Virus record (IMG/VR): IMGVR_UViG_3300031753_000027
Span: 1 to 33,363 of that record
Reading direction: 5' to 3' (one strand)
Source of the DNA: a virus
Length of the DNA: 33,363 nt
Below, one piece after another: positions 3,423 to 29,868 of this stretch. The notes below the pieces were generated by a model that saw nothing but the letters and a program-made list of their open reading frames with translations, was not told the DNA's origin and did no database searches. Made by a program: the position numbers and the translations under genes. Position 1 is the stretch's first letter. Each line of letters starts with the position of its first letter.

Positions 3423-5073
3423 AGACATCTGCCTCCATGCGCTCAATCCAATCACATTTGCCTTTGACCGCGGCCGCGTTGCCTTTGCGTTCTATGTCAG
3501 CCCATTGTTGCTCTTCAGCCACTTTGATTAGAGCGAGCCTCTCGGAAGCGCTGAGGGCAGGGCTTCTAAGTATAGGGTCGGGTATCTGCTTCGAGAGCAC
3601 TAGCGCTAGCGCCGCAGCATAGTCCGCGTGGCGACCGTCTGCCGTACGGGGCAAGTCGATTGAGATACCGCTCTGAGTCACACGCTTTCGGATGGAGAGA
3701 AGGTCGGCTCGAAACGTAGGATCGTCCGGTATCTCAAGTGCGTCATCTGCCAAGCGCATGCGCATGGACTCGAAATTATCCACCTTGCTACGAGCGGTTG
3801 TAGCCTCGTCGTAGACCGAAAGGCCGTGCCTGTGACCGATTGCTTTCACGAAATCCGCGCCGTGCTGGTCACTCCACACGTGCGTGATCTCGTACCCGCG
3901 AAGAAGCCCCGCGATTTCTTTCAGAACGTCGTCGGGATTCAAAGGACTCGTTCGACTGCCGATCCATTGCTTCGCTAGAGCTACCGAGTGAACGATACGA
4001 CCGGCTATGACTCGTTTGGTAGCTACGACTAGGGTCCACGCGTTCCCTCTCGTGCCTGGATCCATGGCAGCCACGTAGGAATGTCCCTCTTCTTTTGGCA
4101 GAGTGACGGAGCCCTTACGCGTGGCTCTATCGATTTCCGTGGTGGCTATAAGCGCCGTTTCCGGCTCGGCGAATTCCCCTAGGACGTCGGTACGGTAGGA
4201 TTGTTCTGCCGAGAGACGTAGCTGTTCGCATCTCTCCGGTGTCCACCAAACCGGATTCATGGCCGTCGCCGGCGCACGGATCACTACGATAGACGGTGAG
4301 GGCTTCTTCCAGTGTTCCTGCACAGCCTCGTAAATGGGGCCGCGCGGGGCCCACGGGGAGCCGATAGCAACTAGCTGCGCACCCGGGAGTAGACGGCCGA
4401 GCACAGCACGTCTGGCGTCATCGAAATTGATTATCCCGTCCGCCTCCCCATTCATACGCGGCGCTTCGTCGAAGATGCAACCAGCCGACCATCGCGCTAC
4501 AAGCGAGCCGCCGGCTTTGCTGCCTGCGACGACGCGTACCTCTACCGGCCGTCCTGACGGGTGTTTGAGTGTGACCGTATCTGCCGTGGGAGGGACCTTG
4601 AGAAGGGCCTTTAGCGCGGGGCGGTTCGTAACGGTCCCGATGAGATGGCCCACTACGACGCGGGCGACGTCCATCGTCAAGGAGACGACAGACACGCGAG
4701 CGACCTCGCCGGGGCGAAGCCTAGATAGGTCGCACGTCAAAGCCGCTCGGACGGCGAGAGCCGCTGCGAGGAGAGACTTTGCCGTTCGTATCCCTGAGAG
4801 CACGACAAGCTCTTTCGGTCGTAGATTGTTCGGCCAGTTCGAGACGTCACCTATCGCTTGGATGACGTCGGGATGGGTGGCTAAGTCTCCAAGGGATTGA
4901 CCGTCCGCGATGCGGCAGATCGCTCGCTGCAAGGGTGTTGCTGTGGTTAAGCCGAATGCATGCTCAGAGGTGAGCATCTCTTCGAGCGTGAACGTCTTGA
5001 CCGATCGGCGAATATGCTCGGCTTGTAGAGACTCGAGATGATCGAAGTCTTGTGCCGTGGGCGTGGGTTTCAC
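3409..5073 (-). CDS. terL: Terminase large subunit (packaging ATPase/nuclease)
   Basis: 554 residues. The motor ATPase that drives DNA into the prohead and the nuclease that cuts it. The N-terminal ATPase shows a deviant Walker A (SGIRTAKS, 93-100), Walker B CIFDEAPRM with D202/E203, and coupling motif AIGSPW near 237-241. The C-terminal RNase H-fold nuclease shows AMDPG (D338), SDQHGAD (D402) and RHADYAAALA (D484), the usual three acidic positions. The start ATG overlaps the preceding stop as ATGA (5070-5073). It begins the packaging-portal-scaffold operon. The small terminase is not obvious next to it. The two minus-strand genes at 8602 and 9287 are weak candidates. Confidence 0.95.
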   Translation of the reverse strand: MKPTPTAQDFDHLESLQAEHIRRSVKTFTLEEMLTSEHAFGLTTATPLQRAICRIADGQSLGDLATHPDVIQAIGDVSNWPNNLRPKELVVLSGIRTAKSLLAAALAVRAALTCDLSRLRPGEVARVSVVSLTMDVARVVVGHLIGTVTNRPALKALLKVPPTADTVTLKHPSGRPVEVRVVAGSKAGGSLVARWSAGCIFDEAPRMNGEADGIINFDDARRAVLGRLLPGAQLVAIGSPWAPRGPIYEAVQEHWKKPSPSIVVIRAPATAMNPVWWTPERCEQLRLSAEQSYRTDVLGEFAEPETALIATTEIDRATRKGSVTLPKEEGHSYVAAMDPGTRGNAWTLVVATKRVIAGRIVHSVALAKQWIGSRTSPLNPDDVLKEIAGLLRGYEITHVWSDQHGADFVKAIGHRHGLSVYDEATTARSKVDNFESMRMRLADDALEIPDDPTFRADLLSIRKRVTQSGISIDLPRTADGRHADYAAALALVLSKQIPDPILRSPALSASERLALIKVAEEQQWADIERKGNAAAVKGKCDWIERMEADVYGEE

Positions 5074-13973: not shown

Positions 13974-15299
13974 TTGCCCCAGGGCATCTCGCTATTTCAA
14001 AAACAACGTCGCCGACCGGGGCTATTTCTAGCAGTGGCACTTCTTCTCTCCGCGTCGCAGCTGCAGCTGTTAACCGAATGCCAGCGAAAATGGGGGTTTC
14101 GGTACCTCGAGAAGCTGCGAACACCGCAACACCCCAGCGCCGCGCTAGGGCAAGAGGTGCATGAGAAACAGCTTGGCCCATACCTAACGCAGGGAAAAGC
14201 CTTTGATTTCACGCGCCCGAGCGGCGAGATAGCACAAGCCTTAGTGCCGTTGCTTCCTCTGCCAGGTACGCCCGGGCTTCACTTAGAGCGCCGGTTCGAG
14301 ATCCCGTCCCCTTCCGGTAAGTTCAGTTACCAGGGATACATTGATCTCTACGCGCCCAATTCGACGTGCGTGCCTGGGATCGAACGAAGCTCGTTGAACG
14401 ATTTGTCTCCATCGCCCCTAATCGGAGACTTCAAGACGACGTCTAATCTCGCTTACGCTAAGACATCGGAAGGCTTGGCGACCGATATACAAGCCCAGCT
14501 ATACAGCTGGGCTCTTATGGTGGAAGAACGAGCCAACGAGATAGATCTCGTGTGGTTCTATACACGTACGCGCAAACCACATAAGGCGCAACGCGTGCAC
14601 CTGCACGTATACAAGTCGCACGTAGACGAGCAATTCGAGCGGATAGATGAAATAGGACGCCGCGTCGAGGCTATTAAAACAGCATCACCAGCGGTTGAAG
14701 ATCTCCCTCCTAACGTTCGCATGTGCGAGCAATACGGCGGCTGTCCCTACAGATACAAGTGTAATATCGCGCCGCCCGCCTTCGCGCGGGCGCAAGAGAA
14801 AGGAACGTCCATGAATAGTATGACCAATGATTTCCTGGCCAAACTTCGTAAGGCGACAGCACCCACCGCTGATGCCCATCCCGTGGCGCCACAGAGCCCG
14901 CCCCCTGCGGCAGTCAAACAGGTAGATATGTTCGAAAGCAGCGAGGTGCAGCTACCAGCGTGGGCTACCTCGCCGGTCGATCCCTTGACCGCGAAGAAGG
15001 CACCCGCACCTGTGGTAATGCCTGCAATCAACCCTCCAGAATCGGCTCTACCCCCAGCGCCTCCTACCGGCGTGGCCGCTCCCAGCGAGACGTCGGAAAC
15101 ACAGAAGAAGCGCGGACGTCCGCGGAAGGAGGCCACGATTACGGAATCAATACAGCAGGCACTAACTGAACCTGTCCACCCCCTGCCAGGCTCCTTCGAA
15201 GATTTCACGGAGAGGTTGCGCCGATGTGGTGTGAAAAAGCTTCAGATGCCCACTACGGAAGTAGACGGAATTACTTTTTGGTCGATTGAGCTAGCGTGA
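13974..15299 (+). CDS. Cas4/RecB-like PD-(D/E)XK nuclease with AT-hook tail
   Basis: 441 residues from a TTG at 13974 that follows AAGGAG by three bases. A GTG at 14034 is the alternative and would begin just before the conserved SASQLQLLTECQRKWGFRYL. The nuclease domain has H63 (GQEVHEKQ), IGDFKTT (catalytic Asp, Lys) and the QAQLYSWAL motif. Cys near the start plus MCEQYGGCPYRYKC make a four-Cys iron-sulfur signature as in Cas4/AddB. After about residue 275 comes a Pro/Ala-rich linker, an AT-hook (KKRGRPRKEA) and a small folded end (VDGITFWSIELA). An internal ATG at 14811 with a GAGAAAGGA site could make the tail alone. It likely processes DNA ends in recombination with the adjoining helicase. 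Confidence 0.8.
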   Translation: MPQGISLFQKQRRRPGLFLAVALLLSASQLQLLTECQRKWGFRYLEKLRTPQHPSAALGQEVHEKQLGPYLTQGKAFDFTRPSGEIAQALVPLLPLPGTPGLHLERRFEIPSPSGKFSYQGYIDLYAPNSTCVPGIERSSLNDLSPSPLIGDFKTTSNLAYAKTSEGLATDIQAQLYSWALMVEERANEIDLVWFYTRTRKPHKAQRVHLHVYKSHVDEQFERIDEIGRRVEAIKTASPAVEDLPPNVRMCEQYGGCPYRYKCNIAPPAFARAQEKGTSMNSMTNDFLAKLRKATAPTADAHPVAPQSPPPAAVKQVDMFESSEVQLPAWATSPVDPLTAKKAPAPVVMPAINPPESALPPAPPTGVAAPSETSETQKKRGRPRKEATITESIQQALTEPVHPLPGSFEDFTERLRRCGVKKLQMPTTEVDGITFWSIELA

Positions 15300-17833
15300 T
15301 GATCCCTGCCGTCGCGCACACGGCAGACTTTCAGCGCGTTCTGTCGCTCCCGCGGCGCGTATGGTCCGAGGAGGATCTCGAGAAACTGGCGCTCGATCTC
15401 ACATCTATATTGAAGACACCGGCGGGCACTATGCGCTTGAAGCACATTCAAGCGCTGGCGCTCCACGACGCCGGTGTCTACGGGGGGCTCTTCGGGCCGA
15501 TCGCCGTGGGAGGAGGTAAGACACTTCTGACACTCCTATTGCCGGCCGTGCTTGAATCTAGGAGACCGCTGCTTCTCCTGCCTGGCGGGCTAATAGAGAA
15601 AACGCAGAGAGAGCGAATCGAACTATCCAAGCAATGGCGCATCCCGTCGTCACTACGAGTGTTCTCGTATGACATGCTCGGAAGGGTAGAAGCAGAATCG
15701 GAGCTAGCTACGTATAAGCCAGATCTGATTATTGCGGACGAGTGCTTCACGGGTACGACCTTAGTGCGCACGGAGAATGGCCCGCGACGCATTTCTGACA
15801 TCGTCCCAGGACAATACGTATGGTCGCTCGGTATTGGTGGACCTGAGCTTAGAGAGGTATTGGGAGTAGGGGAGACACTGACAAATGAGCTGTATCGAAT
15901 ACACTTCGAAGGCAAGCACTACGATTGCACTGCCGGACATCCGTGGCTTACCCGGCAAGGTTGGAAGTGCTCGGCGGAGCTCAGTGTGGGTGATGAAGTC
16001 GTGCGAGACATGCGGCCAGAGTTTCAAGTCAAGGCCGTGCCAGAAACGAAGGTTCTGCTCGAGGAAATGCGTATACACGAATCCGAAGCTAGTGGAGGAC
16101 TGGTCCGAGAGAATGTCGCGGTCGAATCCTGGCCAATATCGGAAGATCAATGGAATGACACGACCGGAAGTCCGAGAGAAAGTATCCGCAACTCATCGCA
16201 AGAATGGTACCCGTCCGAAGATCCAAGGGGGCAATGGCCGAGGAATGACGATCCAGCAAGCGTCTTTACTCTCGGCTTTAGGGCATGGCTGGAAGGCCGA
16301 AAGGAGATTTCCTTGGGGCAGGTGCGCGATCCCGGCATGGCTAGTGGATATCTCTCACGAGAAAGCGAAAATTGCGGTCGAGGTGGACGGGAACAGTCAC
16401 AATACTCTGGCAGTAAGAGCGCGAGACGAGAGGAAAAGGCTATTTTTAGAGGGGTTGGGTTGGATCGTGTTGAGGGTATCGAACGACATGGTATCCGAGA
16501 AGTTGGTAGAAGTTGTCGAGTATATAACCTCCACGTTGAAGGAACGAACAACTTCATACTCGAACACGGACATGTAGTTCATAATTGTCACAAGCTTAAG
16601 AACAAGCGCGCCGCCGTGACCCGTCGCGTCGCTCGGTACATGCATGATCAGCCGCTCACCCATTTCTGCGGGGTGAGCGGAACGATCATGTCACGGTCCC
16701 TAAAGGACTTCGCACACATCCTGCTGTGGTGCCTGAAAACGTCGGCGCCCGTGCCCACGGCGTTAGAGGAAATTGAAGAATGGGCCGAGGCACTCGACGA
16801 AGGGGTCGACCCGTTGGCCCGGCGGAAACCAGGCGCCTTGCTCGAATTCTGCACCGAGGAGGAGAAGAAGGCGCGCCACCCTGCGAGAGTCGGTTTCTGC
16901 CGTCGTCTAACAGAGACACCCGGTGTCGTAGCGACCGTAGGTGAAGGAGAGCACGTTGATTGCAGCATCTATGTTCGTGCAAGCCGGCACAAAGTCTCAG
17001 CCGAAACGGAGCGCCATTTCGAGACATTGCGATCGGCATGGGAGACTCCCGATGGCTGGCAGCTTTCGCAAGCAGTAGACGTTTGGAGGCATGCACAGGA
17101 GCTTGCCTTGGGTCTTTTCTACGCGTGGGAACCTCGGCCACCTACGCCTTGGCTCGAATCGAGGCGTGATTGGAATCGGTTCGTTAGAGAGACCATCTCC
17201 CGCGGACGAACCTATGACTCGGAGCTTCACGTAGCCAACGCATGCGACGCGGGAAAGCTTCCGACCGAAGCGCTCGCCAAGTGGCGATCGATTCGAGACA
17301 CGTTCACTCCTAACGTTATCCCCGTGTGGTGCGACGATAGCGCGCTACACGCATGCGCCGATTGGATGAAAAGCCCTGGGCTCGTTTGGGTGGAGCACAG
17401 GTTCTTCGCGCAACGTCTCTCCGAGCTAACTGGCGTTCCCTACTACGAAGGGGGTGGTTTCGATGCCACTGGAAAGTACGTAGAAGACGCGCCGAGCAAC
17501 ACGTCCGCAATCGTAAGCTGTGATGCGAACAGAGAAGGCAAAAACCTACAGAAGCTCTGGCACCGCAATCTGCTCGTCTGCCCGCCCGCCTCTGCTGCGC
17601 ATTGGGAGCAACTCATTGCGCGTACGCACAGGCCCGGACAGACGGCAGACGAGGTGATCGTGGACATCCTGCTAGGGTGCCGTGAGAACTTCGACGCGTG
17701 CCAGAAAGCCCTAGAAGGCGCTCGCGCGATTCAAGAAGTGACGGGGAAATCTCAGAAGCTCTTACTGGCGGATATTGTCCTACCTAGTGAGAGCGAGGTC
17801 GATCGCATCGGCACGCCGCGATGGCGCAAATAA
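15299..17833 (+). CDS. SF2/SNF2-like DNA helicase interrupted by an intein
   Basis: 844 residues, 563 after splicing. The ATG overlaps the nuclease stop by one base (TGATG). Motif I is GPIAVGGGKT (71-75). The DECH box is split: DE is 147-148, the intein is residues 149-429, and CH is 430-431. Motif III is GVSGTIM. The second lobe ends in REGKNLQKLWHRNLLVCPP and IARTHRPGQ (motif VI near 774), the arginine-finger signature of SNF2-type enzymes. It should remodel or unwind DNA in replication or recombination with the Cas4-like nuclease. Activity requires splicing, because the ATP-hydrolysis motif is broken in the precursor. Confidence 0.88.
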   Translation: MIPAVAHTADFQRVLSLPRRVWSEEDLEKLALDLTSILKTPAGTMRLKHIQALALHDAGVYGGLFGPIAVGGGKTLLTLLLPAVLESRRPLLLLPGGLIEKTQRERIELSKQWRIPSSLRVFSYDMLGRVEAESELATYKPDLIIADECFTGTTLVRTENGPRRISDIVPGQYVWSLGIGGPELREVLGVGETLTNELYRIHFEGKHYDCTAGHPWLTRQGWKCSAELSVGDEVVRDMRPEFQVKAVPETKVLLEEMRIHESEASGGLVRENVAVESWPISEDQWNDTTGSPRESIRNSSQEWYPSEDPRGQWPRNDDPASVFTLGFRAWLEGRKEISLGQVRDPGMASGYLSRESENCGRGGREQSQYSGSKSARREEKAIFRGVGLDRVEGIERHGIREVGRSCRVYNLHVEGTNNFILEHGHVVHNCHKLKNKRAAVTRRVARYMHDQPLTHFCGVSGTIMSRSLKDFAHILLWCLKTSAPVPTALEEIEEWAEALDEGVDPLARRKPGALLEFCTEEEKKARHPARVGFCRRLTETPGVVATVGEGEHVDCSIYVRASRHKVSAETERHFETLRSAWETPDGWQLSQAVDVWRHAQELALGLFYAWEPRPPTPWLESRRDWNRFVRETISRGRTYDSELHVANACDAGKLPTEALAKWRSIRDTFTPNVIPVWCDDSALHACADWMKSPGLVWVEHRFFAQRLSELTGVPYYEGGGFDATGKYVEDAPSNTSAIVSCDANREGKNLQKLWHRNLLVCPPASAAHWEQLIARTHRPGQTADEVIVDILLGCRENFDACQKALEGARAIQEVTGKSQKLLLADIVLPSESEVDRIGTPRWRK
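15743..16585 (+). other. Intein in the helicase DECH box
   Basis: 281 residues. Block A begins CFTGTTLVRTENGPRRISDI with Cys1. Block B is YDCTAGHPWL with the TxxH pattern. Block F is CRVYNLHVEGTNNFILEHG, and block G is HVVHN followed by Cys of the C-extein. All splicing residues are intact. The stretch between blocks B and F (about 16020-16480) in the intein frame is Ser/Arg/Glu-rich and has no recognisable endonuclease. The endonuclease is in the +1 frame (15993-16577). Confidence 0.9.
15993..16577 (+). CDS. Homing endonuclease encoded out of frame inside the intein
   Basis: 194 residues, ATG at 15993, in the +1 frame relative to the helicase/intein. It starts with a zinc-finger-like CETCGQSFKSRPCQKRRFCS followed by RKC, then a NUMOD-like MTRPEVREKVSATHRKNG. 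A Vsr-like nuclease core follows: AIPAWLVDISHEKAKIAVEV, DGNSH, RARDERKRLFLEGLGWIVLR. The catalytic Asp, the EVDG-x-x-H and the D-x-x-R-x-x-x-L-x-x-x-GW pattern fit the EDxHD (I-Bth0305I/DUF559-like) homing nucleases. Its 5' end overlaps the end of the intein N-terminal domain (VGDEVV) and its 3' end overlaps block F. A GGAG lies 14 bases upstream. It should make the double-strand break for intein homing. Confidence 0.82.
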   Translation: MKSCETCGQSFKSRPCQKRRFCSRKCVYTNPKLVEDWSERMSRSNPGQYRKINGMTRPEVREKVSATHRKNGTRPKIQGGNGRGMTIQQASLLSALGHGWKAERRFPWGRCAIPAWLVDISHEKAKIAVEVDGNSHNTLAVRARDERKRLFLEGLGWIVLRVSNDMVSEKLVEVVEYITSTLKERTTSYSNTDM

Positions 17834-19584: not shown

Positions 19585-21677
19585 ACGTCGTAGCCTTCGA
19601 TACCGAAACGGCGCTCATTCGCCCGGCGCTTCAAGCCCCGCCGATGGTCTGTCTCACGTGGCAACGAACGGGGATGGAGCCTCGAATTGACCACGTGAAG
19701 GACGCGGAACCTAGGATTAGAGGCTGGTTAGAGGATCAGAACACATTACTAGTCGGCCACTATACTACCTATGACACGGCCGTCATATGTGCTCAGTTCC
19801 CACGGTTGACTCCACTGGTGTTTCGCGCCTATCGGGAAAGTCGGATCACTTGTACTAAAAAGCGACAGCAACTGTTAGATATCGCTGGAGGAGTCTTCCG
19901 CGGGCGTCTCGGAGAAAAGGGGCGATGGATTACACATGAATATAGCCTAGATGCTTTGTCCCGCCGTCTTCGAGGTATCGCCATGCAAAAAGACGGCTGG
20001 CGCCTGGAGTACGCAAACTTCATAGACGTGCCTATAGCCAAGTGGCCCGAAAGAGCGGCAGAGATTCAAGAGAAGGCTCGCATTCGCCGGGCTGAGTTAC
20101 CCCCCGATCCAGTTGACAAGAAGGATGCGCACTATGATGAAGTGAGGAATCTGAATGCGATTCTCGCAGATGAGCCGGAAGGCGCGATTAAGTACCCCCT
20201 TGACGACGCGACCGCAACCCTAGAGGTATATCTCGCGCAAGAGAAGCATGCGGACTATCTCAGAGACCAGTATAGACAATCATTTGCAGAGTTTGCACTC
20301 TACCTCTCCAGCGCCTGGGGGCTTCGAACTAATCCGGGAGGCGTAGAGTCGCTTTCCGTCGAAACGGAGAAAGCCCTCGCAGAGATAGAGCAAGATCTCG
20401 TCAAAGCAAACCTAGTTCGCGAAGACGGCACACGGGATACGAAGGCTGCAAAACGCCTTATGGCGAGCGTATGCCGAGCTAATGCCATCCCTATACGCCG
20501 AACGGAGGGCCATACAAAGCCTGACAAGCACGGTGTAGTTTGCGCTGATACCATAGGAGAAGCGTGCGAAGAGCACGTATGCCTAGACTCAGATGCGTGT
20601 GGTGCTGTATGTGGGATGGGCATTACGGCGGTAGATAGCGGCGAGATATGTCTGCTTGAGGGAGAAGAAGGGCAGCTACTTGGACAGTACTCGGAATTCT
20701 CTACCCTGAAGAAGGTTTTGTCGACGGACGTCGAAATGCTGAAACAGGGAACAACGTATCCTGTTCACACGCGATACGATATAGCAGAAACAGGCAGAAC
20801 GACGAGTTCCAAGCCAAACATTCAGAACCTGAGGCGACTGCCTGGGATCAGGGAAGCTTTCGTACCTAGGGACGGAATGGTATTCGCGCAGGCAGACTAT
20901 CCTCAGCTCGAACTTTACACCCTAGCTCAATGTTGTTTCTCATGGTTGGGTCACTCGAAGCTAGGAGAGGCATTGAACGCAGGTCTAGATCCTCACCTCG
21001 CCATGGCCGCAACGATTTTGGGTATCGATTTAGCGACGGCGAAAGCTCACAAGAAGCGCGAAGACGTACAGAATGCTCGACAGACGTCAAAGGTAGCTAA
21101 CTTTGGCTTCCCTGGAGGCCTAGGTCCCGCGAGCCTCATTCTATTTGCGCGTAAGACGTACGGCGTTACCTTGACTCAAGAGCAGGCCCGAACACTTAAA
21201 GAGCAATGGCTGGCGACATGGCCGGAGATGCGAGAGTATTTCGCTCGCGTCAATCAACTGTTCGGCGACGATTGTGAGCGCGCGTCGATCGAGACGCTGT
21301 TTACGGAACGCCACCGAGGTGGCGCCACCTATTGCGCGGCGTGTAACAACGGCTTTCAGGCGCTGGGCGCGGATTGCGCGAAGCGAGCATTGTGCCTCGT
21401 CGCAGAGGCGCAATATTGCGAACCTGGTTCTCCTCTCTATGGCACACGAACTGTCGCGTTCGTTCACGACGAAATCATCGTTGAATGTAATGACGACAGT
21501 AAGGCGCATGACGTCGCTTTAGAGTTAGCTCGTCTCATGGTTGATGGAGCCAACGAATACTTGAAAACTGTTCCTATAAGACTGTCAAATATGGAGCCCA
21601 CACTAATGCGAGTGTGGTCCAAGAAAGCAGAACAACGGTGGGATGTGAACAAGAGGTTAGTACCGTGGACGCCGTGA
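19581..21677 (+). CDS. Family A DNA polymerase with 3'-5' exonuclease domain
   Basis: 698 residues. The N-terminal exonuclease has D7 and E9 (VAFDTETAL), a second motif GHYTTYDTAVI and a third YPLDDATATLEVY. The polymerase has motif A ADYPQLELYTLA near 438, the O-helix RQTSKVANFGFPGG near 498 and motif C VHDEIIVE near 627. Compared with E. coli Pol I (KAINFGLIYG) the O-helix keeps K and F but has Gly-Gly where Ile-Tyr occurs. This variant is common among phage enzymes. It would replicate the phage genome. The ATG overlaps the preceding stop, and the stop overlaps the sigma gene start as GTGA. Confidence 0.93.
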   Translation: MNVVAFDTETALIRPALQAPPMVCLTWQRTGMEPRIDHVKDAEPRIRGWLEDQNTLLVGHYTTYDTAVICAQFPRLTPLVFRAYRESRITCTKKRQQLLDIAGGVFRGRLGEKGRWITHEYSLDALSRRLRGIAMQKDGWRLEYANFIDVPIAKWPERAAEIQEKARIRRAELPPDPVDKKDAHYDEVRNLNAILADEPEGAIKYPLDDATATLEVYLAQEKHADYLRDQYRQSFAEFALYLSSAWGLRTNPGGVESLSVETEKALAEIEQDLVKANLVREDGTRDTKAAKRLMASVCRANAIPIRRTEGHTKPDKHGVVCADTIGEACEEHVCLDSDACGAVCGMGITAVDSGEICLLEGEEGQLLGQYSEFSTLKKVLSTDVEMLKQGTTYPVHTRYDIAETGRTTSSKPNIQNLRRLPGIREAFVPRDGMVFAQADYPQLELYTLAQCCFSWLGHSKLGEALNAGLDPHLAMAATILGIDLATAKAHKKREDVQNARQTSKVANFGFPGGLGPASLILFARKTYGVTLTQEQARTLKEQWLATWPEMREYFARVNQLFGDDCERASIETLFTERHRGGATYCAACNNGFQALGADCAKRALCLVAEAQYCEPGSPLYGTRTVAFVHDEIIVECNDDSKAHDVALELARLMVDGANEYLKTVPIRLSNMEPTLMRVWSKKAEQRWDVNKRLVPWTP

Positions 21678-22234
21678 ATGCAGCCGATCATATAGGCCTG
21701 GTGTACCACGTCGCTAAGCGCTTCAATCGCCGAAACGAGAGCTTTGATGACCTAGTTCAGGCAGGTGTGTTTGGTCTAATCAAGGCGGCAGAATCCTACG
21801 ACCCGTCTCGAGGTTGTTTCTCTACCTTGGCGTGCTGTAAGATACGGACGTATATAGCTCGGTATTTACGAGACTGTACTAGGATAATTCATATCCCTCA
21901 CCACGTGCGATCTGGAGTAACGAAACCTGTAGAGTGTCCGGGAACCGTCGTCGCGAGCTTGGATGCCCCCATCGATGAGTTTTCAACTCTGCATGATCGC
22001 TGCGGGGACGGCACTCCTAGTTCTGAAGAGCAGATCGAAGAGGCGGAAATTTCTCGTCTGATTTGGGCGCACGTGGATAAGCTGAAAGAGCCATATAGAG
22101 AGGTCATTCATCTTAGATATCGGGACGGCATGACGTTACAGCAAATAGGCGATCGTTTCGGACGAACAAGAGAGAGGATGAGGCAAATAGAAGAGCAGGC
22201 TTTAGCAATGCTCCGAAAGAGGGTGAAGCTATGA
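21674..22234 (+). CDS. Sigma-70 family RNA polymerase sigma factor
   Basis: 186 residues if the GTG at 21674 (GTGA overlap with the polymerase stop) is used. A GTG at 21665, seven bases after AGAGGTT, is the alternative. Region 2 is DDLVQAGVFGLIKAAESYDP with SRGCFSTLACCKIRTYIARY. Region 4 is LRYRDGMTLQQIGDRFGRTR with ERMRQIEEQALAMLRKR. It has the full small-sigma architecture and should redirect host RNA polymerase to phage promoters. It sits between the polymerase and nucleotide-metabolism genes. The late minus-strand structural and lysis operons are plausible targets, which is inference. Confidence 0.9.
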   Translation: MNAADHIGLVYHVAKRFNRRNESFDDLVQAGVFGLIKAAESYDPSRGCFSTLACCKIRTYIARYLRDCTRIIHIPHHVRSGVTKPVECPGTVVASLDAPIDEFSTLHDRCGDGTPSSEEQIEEAEISRLIWAHVDKLKEPYREVIHLRYRDGMTLQQIGDRFGRTRERMRQIEEQALAMLRKRVKL

Positions 22235-25461: not shown

Positions 25462-25626
25462 ATGTTTCAGAGAGTCTTTCTATTAGGTCAATTGACCTGC
25501 GTTCTGTTCAATCTAGGCGTCTTCGCCTGGGAAGCATCACGCGGAAACGTCGGAATGGCTGTGGTCAATTTCACGGCTGCTTCGTCGTGTGGCTTCGCTG
25601 CTTGGCTGGATTGGGTGGGAATATGA
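25462..25626 (+). CDS. Small two-pass membrane protein B
   Basis: 54 residues, GAGGGAG before the ATG. Two hydrophobic helices: MFQRVFLLGQLTCVLFNLGV and AVVNFTAASSCGFAAWLDW, with a Glu/Arg turn between. Same length and layout as the gene just upstream, with similar AVVN and ALVN segments. Its stop overlaps the methyltransferase ATG as ATGA, so it is co-translated with it. No holin role is implied, because the lysis cluster is elsewhere. Confidence 0.6.
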   Translation: MFQRVFLLGQLTCVLFNLGVFAWEASRGNVGMAVVNFTAASSCGFAAWLDWVGI

Positions 25627-27413
25627 GCGCCTATTCTATCACCCAAGGAGACGTCGTCGAAGTCCTTCGAGGGTTTCAGGATAACTCGTTCGACGCGCTA
25701 TTTTGCGATCCACCGTACGGCTTTTCGTTTATGGGCAAGGCGTGGGATTACGACGTACCATCCGTAGAGTGCTGGGCTGAGTGCTTGAGAGTTCTCAAGC
25801 CAGGCGCGCCCTTGCTCGCGTTCGGCGGTGCTAGAACGTATCACCGCTTGGCGTGTGCCATCGAGGACGCCGGGTTCGAGCTACGGGATTGTTTGATGTG
25901 GCTCTACGGAAAGGGATTTCCAAAGAGTCAAAACATCTCACTGGCCATTGACAAGTCGGCCGGTGCGACGCGAGAGGTCGTAGGTACGCGTGTTCTTACC
26001 GGGAATGCCGCCATCTCTACGAAGGAGAAAGGAGGGACCTATGGTATACAAGTAGGAAGCGTCCCACCGAAGACGGTGAACGTAACGGAGCCGGCCACAG
26101 AGCTTGCGCGAGCTTGGGAGGGATATGGTACCGCGCTAAAGCCGGCATATGAGCCTGTCGTACTAGCCCGCAAACCGCTAGACGGCACGATGGCACAAAA
26201 CGTCGAGCGGTGGGGGGTTGGAGGATTGGCGATTGATGCGTGTCGACTTGATTGGATCGGCAAGCCTTCCGGGTGGTCGAAGACAGGTAGCGAGGCGAGC
26301 GAGAACGTCGCGATGTCTGGGGCGAACTACGCCCGCGAGGCGAAGCCGGACGCCGATGGCCGCTGGCCCGCGAACCTCCTCTTAGACGAAGACGCTGCAG
26401 CCCTCCTAGACGCCGAAGTCGGTGGGAAAGGGTTTCTTAATCTCAAGCCGGCACATGAGCCTGTCGTACTAGCCCGCAAACCGCTAGACGGCACGATGGC
26501 GCAAAACGTCGAGCGGTGGGGGGTTGGAGGATTGGCGATTGATGCGTGCAGAGTAGGCAGTGAAGGCGGCGGGACTCATTGCAGCAACAGAGACGCACAA
26601 GGACGGTGTCTCGGACACAGAGATAGGAACGGTCGTCTCTGGGAGACGATTCACTCGGCCGAAAAGAAAGAAAAGTTAGTGAGACCTAGTAAAACTCTCG
26701 ATGATAAAAACGTATTTGGCCCAGGATTAGGAGCTGACACACAAGTAGAGCCTGATGGACGCTGGCCCGCGAACCTGATCCTCGACGAAGACGCTGCAGC
26801 CCTCATAGACGCTGAAGTAGGTAATCGCCCATCGACCCCGTTTCGAGAGAATACCGCCACGGGCAACGTGCTGCCCTTGAAGAAGAGAACGGCCGGGGGG
26901 TACTCGGACGGAGGAGGGCCGAGCCGCTTTTTTTATACCACTAAGGTGAGCACCAAAGAGCGAGAGGCAGGGTGCGAATATCTCCCGCTTCGTAGCGCCG
27001 GCGAGGTTCCGGAGCGGGACGATAAGTGTAAAGATTGTGTTGGTCGCGGATGGATTAACGATGGAGGCGTCCTAAGTAAGGATCCAGGCTTCGAGTGTCC
27101 GACGTGTCTAGGCAACGGTCGAGTTCGGACGGCCGGCCTTGACGATCCTCTCGCCGGGGCGGGCCGCAGGGGCGGCGCTCGCAATAGTCATCCGACGTTA
27201 AAGCCCATCTCCCTAACTACGTACCTCGCGCGACTAATCATGCCTCCAACCTCGGGTGTCATTCTGATCCCGTTCGCGGGCTCAGGTTCCGAGATGATCG
27301 GAGCCATAAAGGCTGGATGGTCTGGCGTGTTCGGTATCGAGAGAGAAGATGAATACGTGAGGATTGCGAGGGCGAGGCTCGCGTATTGGTGCCCGGGAAG
27401 TGAGGCGGCGTGA
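25623..27413 (+). CDS. DNA methyltransferase (N6-adenine/N4-cytosine type) with internal duplication
   Basis: 596 residues from the ATG at 25623 (ATGA overlap, GGTGGGA upstream). The catalytic DPPYG motif is at 29-33 and the AdoMet-binding FAGSG motif is near 552, the motif order IV then I of beta-class enzymes. The middle is duplicated: a block KPAYEPVVLARKPLDGTMAQ continuing to GGLAIDACR occurs twice, 102 codons apart, as does DGRWPANL followed by LDEDAAAL. Between the second copy and motif I is a DnaJ-type pair of CxxCxGxG zinc motifs (CKDCVGRG, CPTCLGNG). No restriction endonuclease is nearby, so it is an orphan enzyme likely protecting phage DNA or marking it. Confidence 0.88.
   Translation: MSAYSITQGDVVEVLRGFQDNSFDALFCDPPYGFSFMGKAWDYDVPSVECWAECLRVLKPGAPLLAFGGARTYHRLACAIEDAGFELRDCLMWLYGKGFPKSQNISLAIDKSAGATREVVGTRVLTGNAAISTKEKGGTYGIQVGSVPPKTVNVTEPATELARAWEGYGTALKPAYEPVVLARKPLDGTMAQNVERWGVGGLAIDACRLDWIGKPSGWSKTGSEASENVAMSGANYAREAKPDADGRWPANLLLDEDAAALLDAEVGGKGFLNLKPAHEPVVLARKPLDGTMAQNVERWGVGGLAIDACRVGSEGGGTHCSNRDAQGRCLGHRDRNGRLWETIHSAEKKEKLVRPSKTLDDKNVFGPGLGADTQVEPDGRWPANLILDEDAAALIDAEVGNRPSTPFRENTATGNVLPLKKRTAGGYSDGGGPSRFFYTTKVSTKEREAGCEYLPLRSAGEVPERDDKCKDCVGRGWINDGGVLSKDPGFECPTCLGNGRVRTAGLDDPLAGAGRRGGARNSHPTLKPISLTTYLARLIMPPTSGVILIPFAGSGSEMIGAIKAGWSGVFGIEREDEYVRIARARLAYWCPGSEAA
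26139..26242 (+). repeat. Methyltransferase internal repeat, copy 1
   Basis: 104 bp that recurs at 26445-26548 with only two mismatches, both transitions. The offset is 306 bp, exactly 102 codons, so the reading frame is kept. The synonymous positions are also conserved, which points to a recent duplication. Confidence 0.97.
26445..26548 (+). repeat. Methyltransferase internal repeat, copy 2
   Basis: Second copy of the 104-bp repeat. A further related pair lies downstream (about 26355-26424 and 26754-26823), more diverged, showing the duplicated unit is at least 290 bp with a variable centre. Confidence 0.95.
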
Positions 27414-28605: not shown

Positions 28606-28918
28606 AGTGAGCCCGGCTCTCCTGTCCCTGCTCGAAGCCGCCGAGTACCTGGGTGTAAGCCGCTCATCGTTCAAGGAGCTTGTGCAGCCTTTCGTGCCGT
28701 GCGTGCGCATCGGTCGCCGCGTGCTATTTGACCGTGTAGACCTCGACGCATGGGTAAGAGAACGCAAGGCGGCTGGACCATCCGAATCCCGGCCGGCGCA
28801 AATCGTTCGGTCTACGTCGTTCGATTCCGACACAACGGGCAACGGGTCTCGAAGTCCACGGGCTGCGCAAATCCTGACGAAGCTTCGGTCGAAGCCGCGC
28901 GTATCTATGCCGAGGTAG
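28595..28918 (+). CDS. xis: Excisionase-like HTH protein (MerR/AlpA type)
   Basis: 107 residues. The N-terminal 50 residues match the HTH_17/excisionase pattern: LSLLEAAEYLGVSRSSFKEL, then VPCVRIGRRVLFDRVDLDAW and VRERKA. The remaining C-terminal half is low-complexity and overlaps the int gene by 169 nt in another frame. The real functional part is probably the first 55 codons, with the tail a read-through of int coding sequence. It likely directs excision with the integrase. The large overlap couples expression of the two. Confidence 0.75.
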   Translation: MEAKVSPALLSLLEAAEYLGVSRSSFKELVQPFVPCVRIGRRVLFDRVDLDAWVRERKAAGPSESRPAQIVRSTSFDSDTTGNGSRSPRAAQILTKLRSKPRVSMPR

Positions 28919-29868
28919 TAGGTGGTCGCAGAGTAGCTAGGCCCGCATCAGGGGACTTTGCAGCTACAGTAGCAGACTATCTAGCAGACTTTGAACTTGA
29001 GACGAGCCCCGAATGGTCGGCCATCGTCACGATCTATTTCCGAGCGCACCTGATCCCTTTCTTCGGTTCGTTCGAGGCGTTCACTCTGGCGTCTTACGGC
29101 GATTACGGTCGCATGAGACTGCAGAAGGTCACACGGCCTACGGTCCGGAAAGAGCTTAGCGCATTGCGAAGGTTCGTAGCATGGTGTGCAGAGCACGACC
29201 GCATCCTGCCGCCAGTGCCGTCCCTGCCGAAGCACGGTCAGCCAGGCAAGCGCGCCAAAAACGCCCGCAAGCGCAAGGCGACCGTCTTTACAGCAGATGA
29301 AGCGGCGCGCATCCTGGCAGCCATGCCGGAGCGCAGTCAACGAACAGGGCATTGGATTCGTCCGCTCTTTACGGTGCTGTGGGAGACGGGCCTACGTCCT
29401 ACGAGTGTCCTAAAACTCGAGACGCCGCTTCACTACCGCAAGGGTGCCGACGTCATCTTCATCAGCCGAGAGATAGACAAGGAAGGCTTCGAGCGCACCT
29501 TGCCTATCTCACATGCCGCTCAGGCTGCCCTCGACCTTGCGGTCCCCGCGGTCCCCGGTCGAATCTTCCTGGCGCCCAAAGGTTCCCTCAGGGTGTACCT
29601 AGCCGATGCACTGCAGGCAGCTGGCCTAACCTCCCGAAACATCAGCACCTACGACTTTCGACACTCTCGAATCACGGTCGCGGCTAACTCCCCCGGCCCC
29701 CTGACGGGTGCTTCCTACCTGGCAGGTCACAAGCATGCAAGCACCACGGCGCTCTATATCCACGCTGGAGAAGAAGCGGCCCGGGCAACGCTGGCAGCGA
29801 TGTCTGGGGACCGCAGCGGGGACCGCAGCGGTAAAACGAAGAGCAAACCGAAAAAGAAGAGTGGCTAA
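28750..29868 (+). CDS. int: Tyrosine integrase
   Basis: 372 residues. An N-terminal arm-binding strand region (WTIRIPAGANRSVYVVRFRH), a core-binding helical domain (about 70-160), then the catalytic domain: R216 in TGLRPTSV, K244, R304/H305 in TYDFRHSRIT (the usual first His of HxxR is Tyr here), H327 in LAGHKH and nucleophile Y336 in ALYIHAG. The C-terminus is basic (TKSKPKKKSG) and contains a duplicated GDRS encoded by the GGGGACCGC repeat. It starts inside xis and ends 14 bp before the candidate att core. Integration into a tRNA-Leu gene is inferred from that core. Confidence 0.93.
   Translation: MGKRTQGGWTIRIPAGANRSVYVVRFRHNGQRVSKSTGCANPDEASVEAARIYAEVVGGRRVARPASGDFAATVADYLADFELETSPEWSAIVTIYFRAHLIPFFGSFEAFTLASYGDYGRMRLQKVTRPTVRKELSALRRFVAWCAEHDRILPPVPSLPKHGQPGKRAKNARKRKATVFTADEAARILAAMPERSQRTGHWIRPLFTVLWETGLRPTSVLKLETPLHYRKGADVIFISREIDKEGFERTLPISHAAQAALDLAVPAVPGRIFLAPKGSLRVYLADALQAAGLTSRNISTYDFRHSRITVAANSPGPLTGASYLAGHKHASTTALYIHAGEEAARATLAAMSGDRSGDRSGKTKSKPKKKSG
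29539..29556 (-). repeat. Candidate integrase arm site, inverted 18-mer within int
   Basis: The reverse complement of this 18-mer equals 30023-30040 exactly (two GGGGACCGC in tandem). It lies inside the int coding sequence (LAVPAVPG). With copies at 29806-29814 and 29818-29826 this makes six GGGGACCGC sites around the att core. Confidence 0.8.
29806..29826 (+). repeat. Two tandem GGGGACCGC copies at the int 3' end
   Basis: Copies at 29806-29814 and 29818-29826, 12 bp apart, encode the GDRSGDRS repeat of the integrase C-terminus. They lie about 60-75 bp left of the tRNA-derived core, a distance suited to integrase arm binding. Confidence 0.75.

Follow-up and report, generated by a model that had tools for sequence, protein, structure and literature searches.

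Canonical inteins such as PI-SceI carry a LAGLIDADG or HNH endonuclease domain in frame between the two halves of their Hint domain, are inserted in a conserved motif of the host protein and show presence/absence polymorphism. Inteins without an in-frame endonuclease are usually taken as having lost it. Another arrangement, reportedly described by Dassa et al. in 2009, is that of fractured genes, or split inteins, in which a free-standing Vsr-like endonuclease gene is located between the two halves and whose representative is I-Bth0305I. Non-canonical inteins of actinobacteriophages are the subject of a 2025 preprint by Gosselin et al. that, going by its title and by its citation elsewhere for overlapping frames, reportedly may describe related cases. 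This preprint may overlap with the present data, whose interest lies in their breadth, in the selection signal of the two frames and in the coding rule. A literature search for precedents retrieved only the ShiLan insert, which contains an out-of-frame HNH endonuclease gene with neither a splicing domain nor an intron (2025, PMC11855218).

The locus described here was found in a viral stretch of 33,363 nt (IMG/VR record IMGVR_UViG_3300031753_000027), hereafter the window, and most likely (probability of ca. 0.88) corresponds to a mobile intein in which the gene of the homing endonuclease overlaps the intein frame and is not fused to it as a domain, with splicing, internal initiation, cleavage and homing all being predicted. 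It resembles canonical inteins (represented in this data set by L293 and L318) in its Hint domain, in the position of the endonuclease between the Hint halves, in its insertion within a conserved motif and in its presence/absence polymorphism, but differs in that the nuclease has an overlapping gene of its own in the +1 frame while the intein frame itself only displays a disordered linker. Its nuclease model has a fold neighbour of the Vsr/EDxHD type in I-Bth0305I (3r3p), the representative enzyme of fractured genes, and four of the loci collected here (L049, L072, L083 and L109) share their exact split layout, whereas the window and the other cis loci keep the intein as one unbroken chain that the nuclease gene fully overlaps. 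As for the ShiLan insert, the host frame stays open through an insert with an out-of-frame endonuclease, the distribution is patchy and translation is a puzzle; unlike ShiLan, the window has a full intein with a Hint domain around the nuclease, the nuclease belongs to a different family, and selection was measured on both frames.

The host gene (15296-17833, plus strand) was designated as an SNF2/ResIII-like superfamily 2 helicase because of motifs read directly from the sequence (GGGKT, DECH, SGT and QLIARTHRPGQ) together with 29% identity to the ctsHD2 helicase, its C-extein having no Pfam helicase match. The original prediction had this frame open throughout a 281-residue intein bearing the splicing blocks (15743-16585, plus strand), and both coordinates and motifs were confirmed. 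The insertion point falls between the Glu and the Cys of helicase motif II (DE|CH), and the splicing motifs comprise C1, T63-A-G-H66, V-Y-N-L-H-V and H-V-V-H-N|C, with H280 and N281 followed by a Cys as +1 extein residue. The Pfam Intein_splicing profile matched residues 42-281 (E=2e-7) with 31.4 bits, which is under the curated cut-off of 35.8, and the NCBIfam intein_Cterm profile scored 16.4 bits, above its cut-off of 15.6 (E=0.008); the low Pfam score is offset by the homologues and by the fold, both of which support an intein. AlphaFold indeed predicted a complete Hint fold with pLDDT mostly above 90, composed of an N-terminal half (residues 1-90, 15743-16012, plus strand, pLDDT above 90) and a C-terminal half that contains blocks F and G (residues 235-281, 16445-16585, plus strand). 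Foldseek neighbours of this model in the PDB were the Ssp DnaB and Mtu RecA inteins, and intein profile matches were also obtained by sequence. By its motifs and its predicted Hint fold the element is an intein, for which splicing activity is predicted. The locus recurs, 100% identical, on a near-identical IMG/VR contig of 38,285 bp.

Between the Hint halves, the intein frame continues as a stop-free linker (residues 100-209, 16040-16369, plus strand) with a pLDDT below 50. Neither a Pfam search nor structure prediction of the window intein found an endonuclease in this frame, in line with what had been claimed from the sequence. An in-frame endonuclease overlooked by Pfam was rejected given the low pLDDT of this middle part and its lack of amino-acid constraint. 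A hidden domain was likewise rejected as an explanation for the few conserved intein-frame residues of the overlap (L105, Q136/Q200), which were interpreted as shadows of nuclease codons, an example being NNP, which gives (E)QP in the shifted frame. Rather than a domain, this middle part is a disordered, stop-free shadow of the nuclease gene.

The +1 frame of the window is open from 15882 to 16577 and contains the nested nuclease gene of about 195 aa (15990-16577, plus strand), with either GTG 15990 or ATG 15993 as likely start and TAG 16577 as stop. Both candidate starts fall in the codons of the VGDEVV strand of the intein. A Shine-Dalgarno-like GGAG (15976-15979, plus strand) occurs within the Hint codons Ala-Glu-Leu, with a 10-nt spacer to the GTG, and the TAG is located 8 nt before the intein end, within the codons of HVVHN. 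The overlap that had been proposed with the VGDEVV strand at the 5' end and with block F at the 3' end is therefore present, and it extends into block G. The predicted product comprises a CxxC...CxxxC zinc finger (Cys 5, 8, 23 and 27; 16002-16070, plus strand) and a DUF559/Vsr-like PD-(D/E)XK catalytic core (16326-16559, plus strand) recognised by profile match, invariant residues and fold. The match to DUF559 (PF04480) has an E-value of 3.8e-11 and 43 bits for a cut-off of 20.6. Invariant residues of the core are D120, E131, D133, G134, H137, D146, W158, R162 and N165, of which D120, E131, D133, H137 and D146 are unchanged throughout an alignment of 58 nuclease sequences. AlphaFold returned a confident fold for the +1 product (mean pLDDT 89.7). 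Among its closest PDB structures in Foldseek were 3hrl and the homing endonuclease I-Bth0305I (3r3p), with Vsr (1vsr) ranking fourth. The match to 3r3p had E=6e-3 (TM 0.72 by target) at the level of the overall fold and only E=0.3 by sequence profile, the nuclease being a possible member of the EDxHD homing endonuclease family. The claim of a nuclease with a Cys finger and a Vsr-like core is upheld, the term Vsr-like being valid at the level of the fold.

A search of 50,697 phage records with the nuclease (tblastn) retrieved 41 isolate-phage records, in which all matches lie inside a host gene that is in many cases annotated as a helicase and whose intein frame is offset by one base. Among the carriers are Corynebacterium phage phi673, Vibrio phage CP-T1 and Pseudomonas phage MR14, as well as numerous marine Vibrio phages; in the eight isolate-phage regions that were inspected, the nested gene is never annotated. 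Profile scans of IMG/VR and GTDB genomes extended the set to a total of 228 fetched loci having the nuclease between Hint halves, which represent 151 distinct inteins (147 in cis and 4 split); all family statistics given here relate to loci selected by the HMMs of this analysis. Profiles were needed for relatives to be found in IMG/VR, where the single window protein only matched its own near-identical contig, and a search of PLSDB gave one weak partial match. Across all loci the nuclease is in the +1 register every time, never in +2 and never in frame. When loci were retrieved with the intein frame only, about 48 out of 79 had the same nested nuclease, and natural controls were also obtained, namely the canonical in-frame LAGLIDADG inteins L293 and L318 and a mini-intein of 140 aa (L310). 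Among 128 representatives, the first intein residue is always C (128/128), the +1 residue is Cys or Ser in 126, and 110 are inserted at DE|C or DE|S. Rather than an oddity, this two-in-one layout is, from the sequences compared, a widespread and seemingly mobile family in phage and bacterial sequences. It is not limited to helicase motif II since five nested inteins of the same family (L257, L263, L276, L231 and L311) sit at another site, for instance GRDFRNG[IV]|CGVP. One Planctomycetota contig has a shortened nested nuclease of 101 aa within a 200-aa intein (L122:3896-4198), which is possibly a decaying element in transition to a mini-intein.

Selection was analysed separately in the two frames using 12 disjoint close pairs that differ by 673 substitutions. 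These are distributed as 146, 125 and 402 over nuclease codon positions 1, 2 and 3 (host positions 2, 3 and 1, respectively). They cause 224 amino-acid changes in the nuclease for 446 (sd 10) expected, and the nuclease frame is therefore under strong purifying selection; in the intein frame, 474 changes were observed for 442 (sd 10) expected. The intein frame has no stop over 128 loci, where 1,096 would be expected after shuffling of nuclease synonyms and 1,319 from extein codon usage. The nuclease codons reflect this, as T is never used before AA, AG or GA (0/2002) versus 4615/8313 before other codons. The same frame has 19-21 stops in free-standing relatives, which have no host frame to protect, and 15-30 in relatives with a split host. 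The nuclease is conserved in its amino acids, and the middle of the intein is unconstrained in sequence and selected only for the absence of stops. Mutations would be channelled to the third positions of the nuclease, that is to host first positions, and rejected if they create a host stop.

These data bear on whether the +1 ORF could be open by chance, merely shadow the intein frame or stem from an indel error in a single contig. Two open frames over 585 bp may occur by chance, and redrawing the host synonyms leaves the +1 frame of the window open in 2% of trials. The original prediction that the double openness exceeds chance is nevertheless borne out, with an i.i.d. probability of 5e-5 for an open frame of 195 codons, a mean of 7.9 host-frame stops when the nuclease synonyms of the window are shuffled and 0/20,000 shuffles free of stops; among the nuclease codons of the window that end in a pyrimidine, 0/16 end in T before AA, AG or GA versus 28/56 elsewhere. 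Homologues with a nuclease frame broken by stops were not the case, both frames being open at the 147 cis loci, which supports the reading of the same DNA as coding for two proteins whose expression is predicted. Compensating indels are excluded by the identical register in 147 distinct inteins, isolate genomes included. Together with the DUF559 homology, the purifying selection on the nuclease and its confident fold, this makes a chance or artefactual frame vanishingly improbable. An intein that is dead, the nuclease being merely a gene parked in a non-functional helicase, would agree with the disorder of the mid-frame and its unconstrained amino acids. This is also highly improbable, since C1, TxxH, HN and the +1 Cys/Ser are kept across the intein family, the Hint halves are the best conserved parts of the frame and stops are excluded.

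Regarding expression, host-frame translation would yield the helicase-intein precursor, and the intein, made up of the Hint fold and a disordered stop-free linker, would excise itself from the helicase. Ribosomes would also initiate inside the intein coding region, shortly past the N-Hint half, and by following the +1 frame into block G would produce the zinc-finger/Vsr-like nuclease as a free protein. An ATG start candidate exists in 98/128 loci, with a median start (all candidates) 14 nt after the N-Hint half, and a Shine-Dalgarno-like match was found in 72/128 loci for a null of 30%. In several Vibrio and Pseudomonas phages, the conserved Hint strand supplies a GAGG through its Asp-Glu-Val codons. 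In 7/128 loci, no obvious start precedes the finger. Programmed +1 frameshifting of helicase ribosomes, which would fuse the nuclease to the N-extein and the N-Hint, could account for the uniformly +1 register and for loci where a clear Shine-Dalgarno or start is missing. It is unlikely, however, in view of the frequency and position of the ATG candidates and of the Shine-Dalgarno-like sites, nearly twice the null; moreover, a stop just upstream of the ATG closes the +1 frame in several isolates, no conserved slippery motif was noticed in the course of the other comparisons, and the independent antisense families (see below) cannot arise by frameshifting. Judging from these start signals, internal initiation is the likeliest route of nuclease expression, ahead of frameshifting.

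With respect to mobility, Vibrio phages with helicases 95-99% identical have three alleles at one DE|CH codon boundary. The full allele, in Vibrio phage K391, is a 356-aa intein with the nuclease. The second, in Vibrio phages K389, K453, K459 and PS65A.1, is a mini-intein of 150 aa from another lineage and without the nested frame, and the third, in Vibrio phages 234P10, 141O35-1 and 1.024.O, is empty and uninterrupted at DE|CH. The more distant Vibrio phage 13VV501A (79.8%) has a mini-intein of 143 aa. In these five phages (L329-L333: K389, K453, K459, PS65A.1 and 13VV501A), the mini-intein of 143-150 aa occupies the exact site of the nuclease-bearing intein. Nucleases that are 50-60% identical reside in helicase exteins whose identity is close to or under 30%, or for which no relationship is detectable. 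Patchy presence at one site and incongruence between nuclease and extein indicate probable recent movement; occupied and empty alleles occur in close relatives and the spread is unlike that of the host gene, as for a homing element, with cleavage predicted. Presumably, helicase genes lacking the intein are cleaved by the nuclease at the codons of motif II, and repair would then copy in the whole element. Neither a co-conversion tract nor cleavage-site evidence was seen, which counts against homing. Phage homing endonucleases are able to act in excluding competing phages, and the nested nuclease might have been kept for such a role, homing having been lost, as strong purifying selection over a long divergence can reflect a benefit to the phage. 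The patchy presence and the incongruence point instead to recent movement, so that such a role in place of homing is rather doubtful, and a mobile intein with an overlapping endonuclease gene is preferred.

Other states of the element were also detected. In L049, L072, L083 and L109 the helicase is split and has many host-frame stops, with the N-Hint on one ORF and the C-Hint on the next, and at its two ends the nuclease gene shares 101-107 and 130-136 nt with them. These four loci are candidate natural split inteins of the fractured-gene type, from which the window differs by its uninterrupted ORF. In two others (L050 and L095), the nuclease is free-standing beside an uninterrupted ResIII/DEAD helicase gene. 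This suggests a path, with no direction assigned, between nested inteins, split inteins and a nuclease that stands free close to its target. The GC content of the flanks is 0.30-0.39 for split loci and has a median of 0.54 for nested ones; as nested loci reach down to 0.25, GC content was rejected as the sole switch between the two layouts and is a tendency only.

All amino-acid pairs were enumerated over the five alternative registers for unavoidable host stops. In only two of them can every protein be encoded while host stops are avoided: same strand +1, in which xxT before AA, AG or GA must be avoided, which is always possible since xxC is synonymous, and the opposite strand in codon register, in which TTA, CTA and TCA must be avoided. 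There are 5 unavoidable stop pairs in same strand +2, and 5 and 6 in the other antisense phases. Other endonuclease lineages were found in +1 within unbroken inteins (L300, of the HNH type, L297 and L301), and a further three occupy the opposite strand in codon register, namely a zinc-finger/Vsr type (L279 and L325), a NUMOD4-HNH type (L289) and an HTH/Vsr type. For the latter, fetched separately, all 62 non-redundant loci with an open host frame are in the antisense codon register, with a Hint match in 58; two further members have no spanning host frame. These HTH/Vsr antisense inteins are L352-L430 (for example L360:3887-5965 on the minus strand and 3995-4741 on the plus strand), and some of the hosts examined are Mu gpF-like head proteins. 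In 46 antisense loci, Leu TTA/CTA codons are absent (0/777 versus 168/1107 in host genes) and so are Ser TCA codons (0/673 versus 86/702). The sole case in a forbidden phase, L295, has a host gene already broken into halves. The chance of seven lineages all being in allowed registers is (2/5)^7 = 0.0016 if they are independent, as judged by domain content, and if the five frames are equally likely, bearing in mind that antisense frames in codon register also open most easily by chance in GC-rich DNA. Overlap coding is probably a second, general means by which inteins carry homing endonucleases, which the genetic code would limit to same strand +1 or the antisense codon register, one of these being used by at least seven lineages in unbroken inteins; split inteins with free-standing endonucleases may arise once host-frame stops appear.

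The recognition of mobile inteins would change in that many of those collected here without an in-frame endonuclease hide a conserved nuclease gene missed by annotation. The loci also form an extensive natural collection of long overlapping genes, in which selection can be tested frame by frame and a simple rule describes the permitted overlaps; they offer a way of connecting free-standing endonucleases with the cis and split forms of inteins, and are a source of uncharacterised putative site-specific nucleases and compact inteins.

Finally, two other features of the window were noted. The phage encodes a sigma-70-like factor (regions 2 and 4) that adjoins a family A DNA polymerase, along with a tyrosine integrase (21614-22234 and 28750-29868), which suggests a temperate lifestyle. 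A DNA methylase gene (25587-27413) has an in-frame internal repeat in which P-A-[YH]-EPVVLARKPLDGTMAQNVERWGVGGLAIDACR occurs twice, and which looks like a segmental duplication.
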